A stretch of DNA of 23,243 bases, taken from IMG/VR virus record IMGVR_UViG_3300030002_000113, positions 1-23,243 of that record; one strand, given 5' to 3'. The notes under the pieces are model-generated. The model worked only from the letters and a program-made list of their open reading frames with translations. It ran no database searches and was not told the origin of the DNA. Below are positions 15,467 to 23,243 of the stretch, piece by piece (the first letter of the stretch is position 1; each line of letters begins with the position of its first letter). Made by a program: the position numbers and the translations under genes. Source of the DNA: a virus.

Positions 15467-17488
15467 ATGGGAGTTGCTGTAACTCGGGTGGTTAAATATA
15501 TCCTTAAAGGGGATAAGGGAGATAAGGGCGATGCTACAATTATATATAGCATCGTTCCATCTTCCAATTATATAATTGTTGACCCTAATGATAATTCGTC
15601 GACTCCTAGTTATGTAACCGTAAAGATTAAGCAATCTTCTGGTAACCAGATTATATATCCAAATTCAATTCCTACCGGGTTCGCTATGTGGTATAAAAAT
15701 AATACAGATACTTCGTGGGCTTCTGTAATAAACAAAGGATATGTATATCAGGAGGGATGGGACATACCGGATTATATTGAAGTGGCATTAACATCAGATA
15801 CCAATCAACCCGGGGCAGGAAATATTATCAGCTCTATTAATATAGCGGTCATAAAATCTGGTCTTAATGGCTCTGATAATTATTTATTAGATCTTACAAA
15901 TTCAATGTCGGCCGTGGCTTGTGATGAAGATGGAATAGTAAATGATGACGCCACTTTGGAAACTACCACAACCTTTATATATAAAGGATCTTCACTTAAT
16001 GCCGGGTGGGTTTACACAGTCAAAAAAGATGGCGTGCAGGTAGGAACATATACGGACACTACCGGAAACGGCTATGTATTTTCCCCAACTTTAGCGATGA
16101 TAACAGCCGACCTTAATACTTTTGTAATATCAGCAACAAAAGCTTCGGTAGGAATATTATCCGCGGTTTACACAATAAAAAAAGTATATTCCGGAGCGTC
16201 AGGATATCCAGGAACAAATGGAACAAATGGAACAAATGCGATATTATATCAAATTACTCTTAGCGCAGACTCTGTCACTATAAGTAATGATAATAGCGCG
16301 TCTCCAAGCGATTGCACGGCATCTATTAGAGTTAATAATGGAGGGGAAATTACATATCTATCACAGCCTCCAGCAGGATTCAAGCTGTGGAAAAAGAGTC
16401 AAGTAGATAGTTCTTGGATAGACGCGTCTACGGATTCATTTATTCTTTTCCAGAATGACTGGGAAGCGGCTCGATACGGGAGATATATAAATGTGGCATT
16501 AACATCAGATGCCAATCAACCTGCAAATGATTATAGTAATGTGCTTGATTTTGAAACTCTTCCTTTTATTATGGATGGGGCCAAGGGTGATACAGGTAAT
16601 GACGGCATCCCGGGGAAAGACGGAGTAGGAATAATTTCCACAACAATTACCTATCAGATAGGAAGTAGTGGTACGGTGGTTCCTACTGGGGCCTGGTCAA
16701 GTAATATACCTACAGCCGTTCCAGGTGGCTATCTATGGACAAAAACAGTTTGGAACTACAGCGACAATACATCAGAAGTTGGATATAATGTATCGAAATA
16801 TGGCGAACGCGGAAATACGGGGCCTACTTTACGCGGGCCTCAGTCCTGGAGCGATTGCGTAGTAGGTTACGTATTTCAGTCGGGGGGGAATTCAGATACC
16901 TGGAAAGATGTTGCAATGTATGGGGATAATTATTACAGTTGTGTAAAGTCGCACACTAAGACTTCTACAAATTATCCAACTAGTACGGAAGATAATAATA
17001 ATGGTTACTGGCAACTTGGAGACAAAATAGAACTTGTGGCCACAAAGATATTATTAGCTACATATGCATTGGTTAAGAACATGGGTGTAGAAGCCATAGA
17101 CATGAAAGATAGTTCCGGTAATATATTATTTCAAGCTAAAGACGGGAATGTTATTTGCAAGACAGGAACTTTTGAAAATATAACAATTAAAAGCGAGGAT
17201 GCAATACATGGAAACAGCATTATAATAGATGCTAATAGTGGGGGATTAAAAATGCGCGGGCCCGTATCGGTGCAGGATGGGACAAACTTACCGCAGGGGG
17301 ACGCCAGAACTGATTTAGTTAGATTTAATTATGAAACAGATTCGGACAGTCTAACACGGGTTGGTAATTTAGAATTACTATCAGGTAGAGGGGTGAAAAT
17401 TAGGATAGATCCGATTGAAGGACTGACCTATACCGACGGATTAGGAAATACCCATTATAAAACATGGGACACTATATTTAATACATAA
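15467..17488 (+). CDS. Tail fibre with collagen-like Gly-X-Y segments
   Basis: A 673-residue protein. Collagen-like triplets occur near the N-terminus (K-G-D-K-G-D-K-G-D-A), at about residues 244-257 (G-T-N repeats) and at about 370-385 (G-A-K-G-D-T-G-N-D-G-I-P-G-K-D-G), as in trimeric phage fibres. Two similar modules of roughly 95 residues, each ending in V-A-L-T-S-D-x-N-Q-P (nt about 15783 and 16494), are an internal duplication. Around residue 489 an aromatic/Cys module (Y-Y-S-C-V-K-S-H) recalls small carbohydrate-binding modules. The C-terminal part is beta-rich. It directly precedes the DGR target gene, which may attach to its tip or share its platform; that link is inference. Confidence 0.75.
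   Translation: MGVAVTRVVKYILKGDKGDKGDATIIYSIVPSSNYIIVDPNDNSSTPSYVTVKIKQSSGNQIIYPNSIPTGFAMWYKNNTDTSWASVINKGYVYQEGWDIPDYIEVALTSDTNQPGAGNIISSINIAVIKSGLNGSDNYLLDLTNSMSAVACDEDGIVNDDATLETTTTFIYKGSSLNAGWVYTVKKDGVQVGTYTDTTGNGYVFSPTLAMITADLNTFVISATKASVGILSAVYTIKKVYSGASGYPGTNGTNGTNAILYQITLSADSVTISNDNSASPSDCTASIRVNNGGEITYLSQPPAGFKLWKKSQVDSSWIDASTDSFILFQNDWEAARYGRYINVALTSDANQPANDYSNVLDFETLPFIMDGAKGDTGNDGIPGKDGVGIISTTITYQIGSSGTVVPTGAWSSNIPTAVPGGYLWTKTVWNYSDNTSEVGYNVSKYGERGNTGPTLRGPQSWSDCVVGYVFQSGGNSDTWKDVAMYGDNYYSCVKSHTKTSTNYPTSTEDNNNGYWQLGDKIELVATKILLATYALVKNMGVEAIDMKDSSGNILFQAKDGNVICKTGTFENITIKSEDAIHGNSIIIDANSGGLKMRGPVSVQDGTNLPQGDARTDLVRFNYETDSDSLTRVGNLELLSGRGVKIRIDPIEGLTYTDGLGNTHYKTWDTIFNT
16211..16237 (+). 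repeat. Three perfect 9-bp tandem repeats (collagen-like codons)
   Basis: GGAACAAAT is repeated exactly three times, encoding Gly-Thr-Asn triplets in the fibre gene. Each unit is in frame, so slippage would lengthen or shorten the collagen-like rod without breaking the frame. Confidence 0.85.
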
Positions 17489-17504: not shown

Positions 17505-18278
17505 ATGACAAAACAAACAAAAAAGTTGAGTGCCCAAACTACTGTTACAACAGTAAATACGGGCCAAAAAGTACTGATGACGGATGCCAACGGTAATGTG
17601 ACACTTATCGCGCCTTCTGATTTAAAGACGGCGATGATTGGGAGTGTAAATTTAAACGGAATAGAAGATGGTATTTTTATAATGTACCATCGAAAATCAG
17701 ACAATTACCCTTTGATGGTAAAACCGTATAAGTGGACAGCAATACAGACAGGGGGAGAAACCTCCGACGGTGTTGTTATTGTTGAGGGCGGAAAATGCCT
17801 TGTGGTGGCACCTACTGAGTCAGCAAGTAAATTAAACTGGAGTAGCGCTGCTATTAGCGGGGGAGGTGTGACTACACCCGATCGGGTTACTGCCATAAAC
17901 GACTGGGCCGGAAAAACAAATACCGCCGCTCAAATTGCCGCTTCCGGAAGTGCTGTTACAAATACAGTTAGCTATGCCCCGGGCTTTTGTAATTTATATA
18001 GCCGCGTAAATGCAAATAGTTATGGATTGACAGCGGGTAAATGGTGGCTTCCTTCCACAGGTGAAATGATGATGATATATGCTAACATGCTTAAAGTAAA
18101 TTACGCTCTAAGTCTTATTAGTGGTGCTATGCAGTTAGTAGAAGATGCTTATTGGACATCTACCGAGGACAGCGCTACGAATGCCTGGTATCTGAGTCTT
18201 ACCGACGGCGGCGTGAGCAACTACACTAAGTCTACGTTCACGATTCGAGTTCGCCCTGTGTCAGCATTTATTTCTTAA
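17505..18278 (+). CDS. DGR target protein, C-type-lectin-like variable tail protein
   Basis: A 257-residue protein. The first 45 residues are Thr/Gln-rich (likely attachment region). The C-terminal part has the DUF1566/Lcl_C-type C-lectin-fold signature: K-W-W-L-P-S-T-G-E (179-187), Y-W-T-S-T-E (216-221), N-A-W-Y (226-229) and terminal R-V-R-P-V-S-A-F (248-255). The last 38 residues (220-257) hold the variable repeat up to Ala254. Compared with the template, residues 222, 229, 231, 233, 236, 237, 238, 240, 245 and 247 differ. All are Asn in the template translation except 237 (Met). These positions would form the exposed ligand-binding face known from Mtd and TvpA. Placement after the fibre gene suggests a receptor-binding tip. 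Confidence 0.9.
   Translation: MTKQTKKLSAQTTVTTVNTGQKVLMTDANGNVTLIAPSDLKTAMIGSVNLNGIEDGIFIMYHRKSDNYPLMVKPYKWTAIQTGGETSDGVVIVEGGKCLVVAPTESASKLNWSSAAISGGGVTTPDRVTAINDWAGKTNTAAQIAASGSAVTNTVSYAPGFCNLYSRVNANSYGLTAGKWWLPSTGEMMMIYANMLKVNYALSLISGAMQLVEDAYWTSTEDSATNAWYLSLTDGGVSNYTKSTFTIRVRPVSAFIS
18161..18266 (+). repeat. DGR variable repeat (VR)
   Basis: A 106-bp copy of the template repeat at 18810-18915, lying at the 3' end of the target gene. Twelve differences occur, all where the template has A: six A>G (18168, 18196, 18210, 18211, 18213, 18217), five A>T (18189, 18222, 18237, 18238, 18244) and one A>C (18202). None of the other 70 template bases differs. The last 22 bases (18245-18266) are identical, matching the conserved homing end (IMH) of DGRs. 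Confidence 0.95.
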
Positions 18279-18300
18279 TCTTTAACTCTTTTAAATTTTA

Positions 18301-18320
18301 GGTGCGGCGAAAGCCGCACC
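18301..18320 (+). promoter_or_regulatory. DGR target-site hairpin/cruciform downstream of VR
   Basis: A perfect 8-bp inverted repeat, GGTGCGGC and GCCGCACC, around a GAAA loop, 34 bp after the VR and 15 bp before avd. In Bordetella phage and related DGRs a hairpin of 7-10 bp with a 4-base loop just downstream of the VR enhances homing; this one fits that description. No T run follows on the + strand, so it is unlikely to be a terminator. Confidence 0.8.
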
Positions 18321-18335
18321 ATATTACAAATTAGG

Positions 18336-18722
18336 ATGGACAAAATAAAATTAGTGTCAAATACACGCATATACATAGATGTAAATACACTATTGGATAA
18401 AATATTAGATATTACACCGAACTTTCCACACGCCTATAAATATACCATAGGGGCTAAGATGCACGATCTAGGTATACAACTTTTACAGGACATAGCGGCG
18501 GCGTACATAAATCGTAATAGAGAAATTCGTATACAGTATTTAATAAATTTCCAAACTGAATTTGAAATTTTAAAAACCCTAATGCGTAAAGCTGGAGAAA
18601 GAGAATGGATAAAAGGAAGAGGACAGCATGCAAATATTATAGAATTAATGGACGCCATAGGCAAACAGTGTACAGCTTGGAAAAACTCACTAATTAGAGA
18701 GCAGCCAGAACCGGGCAGTTAA
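18336..18722 (+). CDS. avd: DGR accessory variability determinant (Avd), four-helix bundle
   Basis: A 128-residue basic, almost all-helical protein, the same size as Bordetella phage Avd. Residues 17-57 (V-N-T-L-L-D-K-I-L-D-I-T-P-N-F-P-H then Y-T-I-G-A-K-M-H-D-L and Q-L-L-Q-D-I-A-A-A-Y) follow the characteristic first and second helix of the Avd/four-helix-bundle family. R-I-Q-Y-L and L-K-T-L-M-R-K-A-G lie in later helices. Avd forms a positively charged pentameric barrel that binds the DGR RNA and the reverse transcriptase and is needed for mutagenic cDNA synthesis. It sits between VR and TR, the typical order avd, TR, RT. Confidence 0.9.
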   Translation: MDKIKLVSNTRIYIDVNTLLDKILDITPNFPHAYKYTIGAKMHDLGIQLLQDIAAAYINRNREIRIQYLINFQTEFEILKTLMRKAGEREWIKGRGQHANIIELMDAIGKQCTAWKNSLIREQPEPGS

Positions 18723-18756
18723 GACCAACCGGGAGAGCAATTTCCGTAATAAATGG

Positions 18757-18795
18757 GCTGCATACCATCATTCATGGTTAAGAAAACAATGCAGC
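18757..18795 (+). ncRNA. Potential stem-loop at 5' side of TR in DGR RNA
   Basis: GCTGCAT (18757-18763) pairs with ATGCAGC (18789-18795), and directly inside it ACCAT (18764-18768) pairs with ATGGT (18774-18778) around the loop CATTC. A 10-base A-rich bulge separates the two stems on the 3' side. It ends 14 bases before the TR. It may be a protein- or RT-binding element of the template RNA; this is inference. Confidence 0.5.
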
Positions 18796-18809
18796 ACAGA
18801 TTTGCGACT

Positions 18810-18915
18810 TACCGAGAACAGCGCTACGAATGCCTGGAATCTGAATCTTAACGACGGCAACATGAACAACAACACTAAGTCTACGAACACGAATCGAGTT
18901 CGCCCTGTGTCAGCA
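18810..18915 (+). repeat. DGR template repeat (TR)
   Basis: A 106-bp template for the VR at 18161-18266. It contains 36 A, and read in the VR frame it is dense in AAC/AAT codons, the usual design in DGRs because changing A in AAY gives many amino acids and no stop codon. Thirteen AAY codons occur in that frame, nine of which differ in the VR. The 3' end (CGCCCTGTGTCAGCA) is identical in both copies, then the sequences diverge at a non-A base. Confidence 0.95.
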
Positions 18916-18944
18916 CTATTTACGGATTTTATAAATAACAAATT

Positions 18945-20126
18945 ATGGTTAATACAGAAGATATTTTAGAAGCGTACTATAACTGCCGCAAAAATAAGCG
19001 GAGAACAGCTAGCGCGATAGTGTATGAAATAAACTACGAAAGTAATTTAATTACTTTACGAGATCGTATCAACACCCGAGCGTACACACCGGGTAAATCA
19101 ATCTGTTTTATCGTGTCACGACCACGATATAGAGAAGTATTTGCGGCGTCCTTTGAAGATAGAATAGTACACCATTATATAGCGCTTCGGCTGGAATCGC
19201 TATTTGAATTAGTATTTAGCCCGCGTACGTTTAACTGCCGAAAAGGAAAAGGACAACTGTACGGAATTAACAGACTACGCCAAGACATAGCGGAATGCAG
19301 CAACATGTATACCACTGATTGCTACATATTGAAACTTGATTTAAAAGGCTTTTTCATGAGCATTGATAAAATGTTATTAGCCCGGATAATAGACCAATTT
19401 ATAGTTAAGTATTATACCGGTGCGGATATTGACGATTTACGCTACCTATGTCAAACGGTGGTGTTACACCATCCGGAAAGGAACTGTGAACGACATAGCC
19501 CGACTAAGTATTGGGATTATCTCCCGGCTAATAAATCGTTATTTACCAACAGCGAAAACAAAGGCGTAGCCATCGGGAATTTATTTGCTCAACTATTTGC
19601 TAATTTTTTACTCAACGCGGTAGACTGGTATATAGAAGATTTAGGCATAAAATACCACGGCAGATACGTAGACGATATGTATTGTATACACGCCGATAAA
19701 AAGAAGCTGCTAAGTATTATACCGGCAATGCGTAACAAGCTGGCAAGTTTGGGCCTAAGCTTCAATGAAAAGAAGTTTTATTTGCAATACTATAAAAAGG
19801 GCGTAGAGTTTACGGGCGCTATCGTAAAACCGGGTCGTGTGTTTTGTTGCAATCGAACGCTAACTAACTTTATAGCAGCTGTGCGCCGATTGAATAGGGC
19901 CAAGACACTGCCAGAAATACGTCACTGTATTTGCTCTATCAATTCATACTTAGGTCTTATGAGACATAACAATGAATACTCAAATAGATGCCGCATTTTA
20001 AATATGATAGATAGCCGATTATTCGAGTACCTATACATAAAAGGACACCACGAATCGGTAGCGATAAAGAAAAAATATAAAACCAGGGAATTAACATTAA
20101 AACGTATTCGTGATGGCGACTATTGA
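18945..20126 (+). CDS. DGR reverse transcriptase
   Basis: A 393-residue basic protein with reverse transcriptase motifs in order. Motif A is L-K-L-D-L-K-G-F-F (residues 129-137, catalytic Asp132). Motif B is the DGR-type I-G-N-L-F-A-Q-L-F-A-N (210-220), where group II and retroviral enzymes have other sequences. Motif C is Y-V-D-D (241-244), motif D is K-L-A-S-L-G-L-S-F-N-E-K-K (265-277) and motif E is G-V-E-F-T-G (286-291). It has no endonuclease or maturase domain, as is usual for DGRs. With Avd it copies the TR RNA and misincorporates at A. All catalytic residues are present, so the system looks functional. It overlaps the next small gene by 14 nt. Confidence 0.96.
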   Translation: MVNTEDILEAYYNCRKNKRRTASAIVYEINYESNLITLRDRINTRAYTPGKSICFIVSRPRYREVFAASFEDRIVHHYIALRLESLFELVFSPRTFNCRKGKGQLYGINRLRQDIAECSNMYTTDCYILKLDLKGFFMSIDKMLLARIIDQFIVKYYTGADIDDLRYLCQTVVLHHPERNCERHSPTKYWDYLPANKSLFTNSENKGVAIGNLFAQLFANFLLNAVDWYIEDLGIKYHGRYVDDMYCIHADKKKLLSIIPAMRNKLASLGLSFNEKKFYLQYYKKGVEFTGAIVKPGRVFCCNRTLTNFIAAVRRLNRAKTLPEIRHCICSINSYLGLMRHNNEYSNRCRILNMIDSRLFEYLYIKGHHESVAIKKKYKTRELTLKRIRDGDY

Positions 20127-20274
20127 AGAAACAAGTAAACCGGTAACGGTACTAAGAACAGATGAAATAAATATGAATCTGTTATTTTTATTAGAATCGC
20201 GGTATATAGTAATAATATCGCAAAAAGACAACGAAATAGTTTTAGAACTTTATAACAAACAGAGCAATGTATAA
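20113..20274 (+). CDS. 53-residue protein of unknown function
   Basis: Starts with ATG inside the last codons of the RT gene and ends 8 bases into the holin gene, so both neighbours overlap it and translation is probably coupled. The protein begins M-A-T-I-E-E-T-S-K-P-V and has a strand-like core R-Y-I-V-I-I-S-Q-K-D-N-E-I-V-L-E-L-Y. No signal peptide or membrane segment is evident and no family was recognised. It could be a small DGR accessory or a lysis-module protein; nothing in the sequence decides this. Confidence 0.6.
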   Translation: MATIEETSKPVTVLRTDEINMNLLFLLESRYIVIISQKDNEIVLELYNKQSNV

Positions 20275-20734
20275 TGTAATTTTAGAATTTGCGCAGCATC
20301 ATTTATTTTTGCATGTTGTACTAATCTTTATTAGCACCCTGGCGCTGTTGGTAGCGATGGGTACGGATTTAATTTTCGGAGTTAGAAAAGCTAAACAGTC
20401 AGGCAGGGCCAGGACGTCAACGGGGTATAAAAAAACCTGCGAAAAAGGACGAAAATACTTTTCCCCATATATCGTACTGATATGTATAGACCTAATAACA
20501 TGCGTGATCGTGCCATTCCCTGCCTTTTCGATGGCTTGGGCTGCCTGGTGTGTTTACTGCGAATTTAAGAGTGTACGCGAAAAGGCCTGGCAGAAAGAAG
20601 AACTACGCAATGCTGAAAATACTATGAATGTCATAATACAGAATAAAGACGACATAGCAAAATTATTAAAAGAAGTATTATTTACGGAGGACAAAAATAA
20701 TGAGAAAGATAAATCTAATAATAGTGCACTGTAG
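20267..20734 (+). CDS. Phage holin family protein
   Basis: A 155-residue membrane protein with hydrophobic segments at about residues 12-36, 66-84 and 84-100. Between the first two is a basic loop beginning D-L-I-F-G-V-R-K-A-K-Q-S-G-R (34-47), the pattern of the phage holin family found in Bacteroides phages. After the last segment, a charged helical cytoplasmic tail follows. Holins open the inner membrane at the end of infection. The gene immediately precedes and overlaps (35 nt) the amidase gene, the usual holin-endolysin pairing. Confidence 0.82.
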   Translation: MYNVILEFAQHHLFLHVVLIFISTLALLVAMGTDLIFGVRKAKQSGRARTSTGYKKTCEKGRKYFSPYIVLICIDLITCVIVPFPAFSMAWAAWCVYCEFKSVREKAWQKEELRNAENTMNVIIQNKDDIAKLLKEVLFTEDKNNEKDKSNNSAL

Positions 20735-21110
20735 TGCAACACCGGAAGGCAAAGACTTTACGGTGGATGATATTACACGCTGGCATAAGGCGCGCGGGTT
20801 TAAAACAATAGGTTACCATTTTGTTATCTACCGTGATGGAACGATACATGGAGGGCGACCAGTTAGCGAGATAGGAGCGCACTGCGTAGGACATAACGCT
20901 AATAGTATAGGTGTTTGCTATATCGGAGGTCTAGCCACGGATGGGAAAACGCCAAAAGACACGCGTACAGACGCTCAAAAATCTTCACTGCGTAACTTAT
21001 TAACTCAGCTTAAAAAAAGCTATCCCGGCGCCACTATACATGGCCACCGTGATTTTGCGGCAAAGGCGTGCCCGTCTTTCGACGCAACAAAAGAATATTA
21101 TAATTTATAA
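20700..21110 (+). CDS. N-acetylmuramoyl-L-alanine amidase (endolysin, T7-lysozyme-like)
   Basis: A 136-residue Amidase_2 domain protein without a signal peptide, which fits release by the holin. It cuts the bond between MurNAc and L-Ala in peptidoglycan. Zinc ligands expected from T7 lysozyme are visible: His10 (I-V-H-C-S-A-T), His116 (G-H-R-D-F) and Cys124 (K-A-C-P-S-F). The probable catalytic Tyr39 (G-Y-H-F) and Lys122 are also present. A good Shine-Dalgarno (GGAGG, 20686-20690) lies within the holin gene nine bases before the ATG. Confidence 0.95.
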   Translation: MRKINLIIVHCSATPEGKDFTVDDITRWHKARGFKTIGYHFVIYRDGTIHGGRPVSEIGAHCVGHNANSIGVCYIGGLATDGKTPKDTRTDAQKSSLRNLLTQLKKSYPGATIHGHRDFAAKACPSFDATKEYYNL

Positions 21111-21552: not shown

Positions 21553-21586
21553 CCGCGGCCGCCTGTGATAGGTAGACGCGGTTTTT
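21553..21586 (+). terminator. Probable terminator after the lysis genes
   Basis: CCGCG (21553-21557) and CGCGG (21577-21581) enclose an inner CCT/AGG stem, followed at once by five T. It lies between convergent genes (spanin gene + strand, integrase - strand) and would end the late transcript. The stem is interrupted, so confidence is moderate. Confidence 0.5.
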
Positions 21587-22808
21587 ATTTCCCCATTATA
21601 TAATCTATCACCTGTCGATTTGCGGAATCTACCTTATCACGATTATACTTTATATACACACCCGTAACCTTTGCGCCGTGAGAGTGCCCTAGGGCTTCGC
21701 TAATAGTGTCTTTGGGTATATCGAGTTCAGCGGCAAAAGTAGCCCAGCTGTAGCGCGCATAGTATATAGATAGATGTTTGTCTATAGGATCCATTTCTCT
21801 GCGATTATTGCCGGTTAGGATATAATTACCTTTTTTGTCCGTCAATGGCGGGCCCATCTTGGCAAGAGCATTATTAATAGATCCTTGCAGGGCCTTGTAA
21901 TCTTTGTATCTATCAAAGCAGCGTATAAGGTGCTTTGTACCGTGATAACGGTTTATTATTTCCGCGGCTTCGGGCTGTATTTTGATGCTGTACAGCTTGC
22001 CAGTCTTGGCGCGCCGATATTCTAGGCGGCCGTCTACTATATTATCGTCAGTAAGCATAGATAGATCCACAGTGTTAATACCGATAAGATAGAACGTAAG
22101 TAGAAACATATCACGATATTTCGGGTACATGCCTTGTAAATCTAAAGATAGTAAAAGTCGGAATTTATCTAACGTAAGTACTCGCATCCTTGTTTCTTCT
22201 ATCAGTATGCGATAATTTCTAAAAGGGTTATTAGTTGTAATTCCATTATCGAGCGCCCAGTTGAACGCCCTACGCAAATTTCGCATATATGTAGATTTGG
22301 TATTAATCGACATATCTGGCATGGATTTATAAAAATCTTCGAGCCAGGTATGTGTTATATCCTCAAAATGTATGTTACTAGCATCTCCGGCGTAAACATT
22401 TATTTTAAGGACCGTGCTTTTAACTGTACCCTTTGTGCGATCGCGTCGACCGTCCATCATTTTTTCAAATACTTCCGCGAGGGTTGGTACACCTACCGTG
22501 GGCTTAACTAGATCCAAATTGGTAAGCATTTGTTTTATTTGCGCGTCAGATAGCTTTGGCCACTGGCCAGTCTCTTTTAATTCGAGTATGCGGTTACTAA
22601 CATTAGTTAGCATCGACACCAGCGCGCTGTTAATACGTCTACCTGATTTGCTAGTACAAAGGTTAGTGGTATTGTCCCAATCTTTTGAATCTATATAAAT
22701 ACCGGTACTAAGATATATATTTGTACCGTGGCCGACAGCTATCTGTATGGGGTATGTACCATCTTTTAATTGACGCCTAGTATCAAGCCTTAACTTAGAT
22801 CTTGCCAT
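21585..22808 (-). CDS. int: Tyrosine recombinase/integrase, Bacteroidetes type
   Basis: A 407-residue protein; the ATG at 22808 (M-A-R-S-K-L-R-L-D) is preferred over an in-frame TTG at 22844. Residues 1-50 form an arm-binding domain, about 105-200 the SAM-like core-binding domain, and 210-407 the catalytic domain. Catalytic elements seen are Lys268 in the beta-hairpin (R-A-K-T-G-K), Arg352 in Y-Y-A-R-Y-S-W-A, His375 in L-G-H-S and nucleophile Tyr385 in G-V-Y-I-K-Y. The usual first Arg is replaced by Asn245 (G-I-N-T-V-D-L), and the His three before Arg352 by Tyr349. IntDOT of Bacteroides CTnDOT also lacks the first Arg, so this need not mean loss of activity. It would integrate and excise the prophage. 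Confidence 0.92.
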   Translation of the reverse strand: MARSKLRLDTRRQLKDGTYPIQIAVGHGTNIYLSTGIYIDSKDWDNTTNLCTSKSGRRINSALVSMLTNVSNRILELKETGQWPKLSDAQIKQMLTNLDLVKPTVGVPTLAEVFEKMMDGRRDRTKGTVKSTVLKINVYAGDASNIHFEDITHTWLEDFYKSMPDMSINTKSTYMRNLRRAFNWALDNGITTNNPFRNYRILIEETRMRVLTLDKFRLLLSLDLQGMYPKYRDMFLLTFYLIGINTVDLSMLTDDNIVDGRLEYRRAKTGKLYSIKIQPEAAEIINRYHGTKHLIRCFDRYKDYKALQGSINNALAKMGPPLTDKKGNYILTGNNRREMDPIDKHLSIYYARYSWATFAAELDIPKDTISEALGHSHGAKVTGVYIKYNRDKVDSANRQVIDYIMGK

Positions 22809-22830
22809 GATAATTTGCTGATAATTTGCT
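22809..22830 (-). repeat. Two 11-bp direct repeats at the integrase start
   Basis: GATAATTTGCT occurs twice in tandem directly upstream of the integrase ATG. It could be an operator, an arm-type integrase site or chance; nothing decides. Confidence 0.6.
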
Positions 22831-22844
22831 GAAATTAGTACCAA

Positions 22845-22992: not shown

Positions 22993-23243
22993 TTAATCTA
23001 ACATATCATCACTTTTCCCTAAAGCACCGTAAACGAACTTTGCCACAAGCGGTCTGCTCGTCTCTTCGGTAAGTCCTTTACCCAAACGACCATAGATGTA
23101 TGGAACTTCAAGTCCTTTTACACAGTAGTGAGTTATATCGGCTACCAGTTCAACATTGTCAATATCGAATTCGCCATCTGCTTTCCCCTCAGCAAAGACC
23201 TTTCTAAAGAGCTCAATCTCATCTTCATCGAAATTCTTTCTGA
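22993..23243 (-). CDS. Probable TetR-family transcriptional regulator, C-terminal part
   Basis: The frame enters from the right edge and ends at 22993, so only the last 82 full codons are visible. The segment E-L-F-R-K-V-F-A-E-G-K-A-D-G-E-F-D-I-D-N, followed by V-A-D-I-T-H-Y-C-V-K-G-L, matches the pattern of TetR ligand-binding domains (a helix, K/A-x-G-E-F, then a helix ending in K-G-L). The DNA-binding domain is outside the window. Its less extreme A/T content and position beyond the integrase suggest a chromosomal gene flanking the prophage. Family assignment is from the C-terminus alone. Confidence 0.55.
   Translation of the reverse strand, partial: RKNFDEDEIELFRKVFAEGKADGEFDIDNVELVADITHYCVKGLEVPYIYGRLGKGLTEETSRPLVAKFVYGALGKSDDMLD

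Follow-up and report, generated by a model that had tools for sequence, protein, structure and literature searches.

The locus analysed here raises the question of whether a DGR, whose parts all appear to be in place beside the tail genes of a prophage, is able to vary its target protein, and which sequences around its template could serve this purpose. The window comprises an entire IMG/VR record, 23,243 bases long, whose left end is cut inside the portal gene. Read from left to right, it contains genes for head, tail and tail-fibre-like proteins, the DGR, and a holin-like gene followed by an amidase, with an integrase and a host regulator located on the opposite strand. The DGR cassette (17505-20126) is complete: target gene with VR, target hairpin, avd, TR and RT are all co-oriented, and all ORFs are intact. 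A complete set of adjacent, co-oriented parts, lying within a tail module, had been proposed in the initial annotation; part-by-part matches and open reading frames bear out the former statement, while the major tail protein, the other tail proteins and the tail-fibre-like gene bear out the latter. By the features that define the class, i.e. TR/VR changes confined to A, a YxDD RT, an Avd, a lectin-fold target, and an IMH with its hairpin, the element is a DGR. The best explanation overall, with a probability of about 0.85, is an intact and very probably active DGR, carried by a temperate tailed phage integrated in the fabG of a Prevotella-like bacterium. The features are collected in Table 1.

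Table 1. Features located in the window, with strand and supporting evidence or remarks.
Feature	Position	Strand	Evidence or remarks
Tail-fibre-like gene, immediately upstream of target	15467..17488	+	PHROG tail fibre/host specificity matches
DGR target (variable) protein, 257 aa	17505..18278	+	Pfam Lcl_C 8e-7 (below cut-off), AF2 model
VR, last codons of target	18161..18266	+	Direct repeat; 3' end CGAGTTCGCCCTGTGTCAGCA is an unchanged IMH-like end
Target-site hairpin, 8 bp stem, GAAA loop	18301..18320	+	34 bp past VR
avd accessory gene, 128 aa	18336..18722	+	Pfam bAvd 6e-25, NCBIfam DGR Avd 7e-9
Structured RNA 5' of TR	18739..18800	+	Covariation, covariance-model matches
TR, 36 A, 11 AAY codons in VR frame	18810..18915	+
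TR-RT spacer, 29 nt	18916..18944	+	Length and sequence vary among relatives
DGR RT, 393 aa, YVDD	18945..20126	+	RVT_1 1e-15, PHROG 1423
Holin-like gene and amidase (lysis cassette)	20267..21110	+
Tyrosine integrase	21585..22844	-
Right attachment junction ATGGGATTATTA, first fabG codons	22958..22969	-	Empty vs occupied site comparison
Host regulator gene, 3' part	22993..23241	-	TetR-like by inspection

VR and TR were found as a direct repeat with a spacing of 649. The 106-bp core has 12 differences and 36 template A, and each difference lies on one of these A (hypergeometric P 5.7e-7), in agreement with the chance of about one in a million given previously for differences restricted to A. The changes, six A>G, five A>T and one A>C, produce 11 amino-acid substitutions and no stop. 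The 11 AAY codons of the template allow about 10^12.9 possible proteins, and the sole template codon able to yield a stop is an AAG.

The catalytic residues and the DGR-type motif B expected for the RT are both present, as YVDD and AIGNLFAQ respectively, but motif B reads GxxxAQ, a form common to most relatives, rather than the textbook GxxxSQ. A profile search identified BPP-1 bRT (8ub7, E 3.8e-32) as the closest PDB relative. RT residues R63 and I210 show no variation among 18 aligned RTs; their counterparts in bRT are R74 and I181, which we take to be the positions that set adenine infidelity in BPP-1.

The target hairpin has a DNA fold z of -3.7 and, in 16 distinct sequences, 8/8 pairs are kept, 6 of them via changes on both sides. 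Functional hairpins have been described as having a stem of 7-10 bp, a GRNA loop and a distance of 4-34 bp (Guo 2011, PMC3240598); stem, tetraloop and distance from VR in the window all fall within these rules. Loops outside this BPP-1-derived GRNA rule occur in L039, L022 and L026 (GTTT, GCAA and GTTA), whose VRs are diversified.

No nucleotide match to phage records was obtained by megablast with the window, and a genome scan with the single RT was also negative; relatives were found by an alignment-based scan, and a scan with the target returned 41 related loci in viral contigs. Of the complete loci, most contain the whole cassette and a TR/VR pair biased to A. Among described phages, Bacuni F1, F2 and F4 of Bacteroides uniformis (Hedzet 2021, PMC8143477) show the same order target-avd-TR-RT-holin-amidase-integrase, with identities to the window of 62-66% for RT, 64% for the target and 68% for avd. 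They also have a DUF1566/lectin-type target, the hairpin and the RNA element 5' of TR (L010, L012), and differ in host group, Bacteroides uniformis as opposed to Prevotella-like for the window phage. The window has their gene order and homologues of their DGR, tail and lysis genes. As a DGR it belongs to this published Bacuni-like kind; its novelty lies in the stretch between avd and TR, where a structured RNA covaries. Phage-borne DGRs with host-attachment-type targets also occur in other phages of gut Bacteroidota, Hankyphage among them (PMC6199706; PMC8144416); Hankyphage, a transposable phage, was set against the window by description. A survey lists over 30,000 DGRs (PMC8144416).

Bacuni phages have a second, remote target, which in Bacuni F1 lies beside the DNA polymerase; no such target is found in the 23 kb record, which is cut where the gene would be. 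A second remote target is present in G005 (L120, at about 104676-105584 of G005:C1), as an ORF with an N-terminal cysteine motif. Its VR matches the TR of the main G005 locus (L058) with 22 differences, 18 of them on A (P 5e-8), and is followed downstream by a GAAA hairpin of its own. In a further variation, the RTs of Bacuni F4 and F1 (L011, L012) are without 19 aa before LYGIN, including TFNCRKGKG, while F2, the window and the other relatives examined keep them. The F2 form thus looks ancestral and the F1/F4 form looks like a deletion, which may have impaired the RT; the difference is worded as an insertion in F2 in PMC8143477.

The nature of the varied protein was evaluated by modelling. 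The target was modelled with AlphaFold from 26 sequences, taken from the window and the loci (pLDDT 82.9); the model has as its best match the Bacteroides fimbrial protein BACOVA_04982 (4eps, Z 15.6, 180 residues), followed by the Legionella Lcl C-terminal domain (8q4e, Z 11.7) and then by C-type lectins. In the model the C-terminus is a C-type-lectin fold of the Lcl/DUF1566/fimbrial-tip kind, with VR at its 3' end. The Bacuni authors matched their own target to the same fold, and proposed a receptor-binding role for it, on the grounds that phages infecting different host strains differ in VR (PMC8143477). With the tail-fibre gene on one side and the lysis genes on the other, the window target is most likely a receptor-binding tip of the virion. 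A surface adhesin expressed during lysogeny, in place of a virion protein, could be suggested by the fimbrial protein at the top of the structural matches, but is unlikely, as inspection of the target N-terminus (MTKQTKKLSAQTT) gave no evident signal peptide or lipobox, the gene shares its orientation with the tail-fibre-like gene before it and the lysis cassette after it, as in Bacuni phages, and in these phages VR differences track the host strain. For a receptor-binding tip in the window phage, we infer that the receptor may be a glycan and that host switching could occur, along the lines of the initial annotation.

Activity was evaluated by comparing relatives whose TR and backbone are the same or almost the same. 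L025 and L029 differ at 11/37 A sites, 1/74 other VR sites and 0/2394 positions elsewhere; for L043 and L045 the corresponding values are 16/36, 0/76 and 4/2642, and for Bacuni F1 and F4 17/35 and 1/73, with no difference elsewhere in the cassette. Related prophages with an identical TR and different VR alleles, which had been suggested as a check on activity, therefore exist, and a VR identical in all related genomes, which would have argued against it, is not what the family shows. When 26 distinct VR/TR pairs of the clade were pooled, 375/951 template A were changed, versus 19/1837 other bases. In AAY codons the first-position A is changed in 67% of cases and the second in 49%, while values for other A's range from 7 to 15% and the conserved AAG is never changed (0/50). 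This codon pattern is consistent with selection for a working protein scaffold; part of it may come from template context, as misreading in BPP-1 is greater when the context is AAC (PMC12875486). Judged from these VR-only differences among relatives, the DGR family of the window is active.

Reduced forms of the cassette were also observed. L041 retains target, VR and hairpin but has lost the 3' end of avd together with TR and RT; L040 has the target and a cut avd, without TR and RT; L037 has a target without hairpin, avd, TR and RT. The DGR is thus dispensable, as losses of the kind seen in L041 indicate.

For the exact lineage of the window no VR diversity was found, the near-identical records L003 and L004 carrying the same VR (two records, possibly one population). 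A DGR intact in sequence but silent or decaying, with its VR as a frozen allele, would account for the VR shared by these records and would be in line with relatives that hold target and cut avd without TR/RT (L040, L041) or have no DGR beside the target (L037). It is nevertheless quite unlikely: in the window all ORFs are open, the catalytic and A-infidelity positions, the hairpin, the IMH and the 5' RNA are intact, close relatives with the same parts vary in VR only, and the identity of L003 and L004 may reflect a single population.

The prophage state and the host were established from the right end of the record. The regulator fragment has intact counterparts in Prevotella sp. P2-180 and P3-122, at 86-88% identity (88% for P2-180), and in both the gene stands upstream of fabG. 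The window departs from this host pattern just past ATGGGATTATTA, at about 22969-22958. A relative, G005, has the same junction and carries the remainder of its fabG at the opposite prophage end, at a distance of about 55 kb; since both junctions are visible there, the phage integrates into the fabG 5' end. A tRNA attachment site was considered and rejected, as the window is without a tRNA and the site is fabG. The left junction of G005 provides a new ATG (ATGAACACAACAAAATTATTACAAGGA), where integration separates the fabG start from the rest of the gene, and this may keep fabG translatable after integration. The prophage assignment proposed initially is in this way supported by an integrase, by a right attachment junction next to a host regulator and by both ends in a relative; the Bacteroidota host is also supported, the best matches of the host gene being in Prevotella, and by sequence similarity of this gene the host is Prevotella-like. 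Judging by their labels, several relatives come from gut and rumen assemblies. Bacteroidota-type prophage DGRs were also found in assemblies labelled Elusimicrobiaceae, Saccharibacteria and Clostridia (L059, L060, L061, L070, L071); these contigs are most likely misbinned.

The structure located between avd and TR, which the initial annotation does not mention, was proposed by RNAalifold on the relatives. It consists of 14 bp, in an outer stem (GGCTGCAT/ATGCAGC; 7-8 pairs among relatives) and an inner 5-bp hairpin (ACCAT-CATTC-ATGGT), which is stacked on the 5' side of the outer stem and leaves the 3' side unpaired; in the window, it ends 10 nt before TR. In 20 distinct sequences, 97.5% of cells are paired and 10 of the 14 pairs have double-sided changes, for a total of 38 double-sided cells versus 11 in shuffles; control structures slid by 1-3 columns are paired in 26-39%. 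A covariance model (R1) detected the element in 58 DGR loci, all on the TR strand, extending as far as RTs of about 45-54% identity. In 57 of these loci the distance from the element's end to the start of TR is -2 to 20 nt, and in one it is 59 nt. For 36 sequences, in an alignment fitted to the model, 120 double-sided cells were counted, versus 32 in shuffles. A distant group (RT about 35%), beyond the reach of the model, shows the same fold with independent covariation (24 versus 7 double-sided cells, 98% paired), and the sequence it leaves unpaired, TTACGAAG.TGCA, is similar to TTAAGA in the first group. The two groups may be homologous.

Folding energy is unremarkable (z +0.5 for the whole avd-TR-RT RNA, with mostly weak upstream z-scores) and is not exceptional by itself, so that the case for a structured RNA rests on covariation. 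A pseudoknot between the CATTT loop and an upstream AAATG was dropped, since L025 (AAACG with CATTC) breaks the pairing without compensation. A reading of the element as a short ORF (ATGGG...) or as a terminator, rather than as a structured RNA, is very unlikely: it includes a conserved ATG, and Bacuni annotation places an ORF over TR, but frame and stops are not conserved (in the window the ATG and the VR are in different frames, and L020 has an early stop), changes are compensatory across the stems, and the hairpin has no downstream T-run.

Comparison of the structured RNA with Rfam 15 gave no match at the gathering score, and nothing relevant on the window at a lax threshold. No description of a conserved structure 5' of TR was found in the literature searched, to which the candidate structured RNAs of Weinberg 2017 did not belong. 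The model does not match BPP-1, a Faecalibacterium phage or a Pseudomonas phage, and the element is therefore not universal.

In the literature, the conserved RNA structure of DGRs is placed 3' of TR (PMC8867640, PMC12875486), and the BPP-1 spacer is described as a structured RNA which recruits RT-Avd (PMC12875486). The window shares with BPP-1 the gene order (mtd-avd-TR-brt), A-specific change, a GAAA target hairpin, Avd and the RT family (8ub7). The BPP-1 layout attributed to this locus in the initial annotation is therefore correct for gene order and not for RNA: BPP-1 has a TR-brt spacer of 144 nt and no avd-TR gap, whereas the window has a 29-nt spacer and a covarying RNA 5' of TR. A structured 3' spacer of the BPP-1 type was also considered and is not supported, the spacer of the window being short, unconserved and without covariation. 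From the TR end into the RT start no covarying structure was found (2/20 pairs), and the first 10 RT codons show mild codon conservation only (ratio 1.20).

Taken as in BPP-1, the mechanism would start from a transcript spanning avd, TR and RT, acting as template. RT and Avd would copy TR into cDNA, misreading adenines, and the cDNA would replace VR at the 3' end of the lectin-fold target by mutagenic retrohoming, guided by the shared 3' end (IMH) and by the hairpin after VR. Through the target tip, the phage could continually sample new binding surfaces. The 5' RNA, as a presumed part of the template RNA, would dock RT-Avd or stop cDNA synthesis at the TR 5' end, taking the role that BPP-1 assigns to the long 3' spacer and the avd end. 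We infer docking or termination rather than regulation from the close and consistent position of the element next to the TR start. There is an even chance that, in a broad group of Bacteroidota phages, this undescribed, strongly covarying element directly 5' of TR, with its conserved unpaired 3' strand, replaces the 3' spacer of BPP-1 for RT-Avd docking, marks the cDNA stop, or both.

The cassette extends phage hypermutation of a likely receptor-binding protein to a Prevotella-type prophage, the evidence for activity being comparative and drawn from close relatives. Work on the DGR mechanism rests largely on BPP-1, where the RNA recruiting the RT lies 3' of TR. The structured RNA 5' of TR may be an overlooked working part of such DGRs; if essential, it would provide a different RNA architecture to test, a covariance-model route to DGR template RNAs and a handle for the use of such DGRs as protein-evolution tools.
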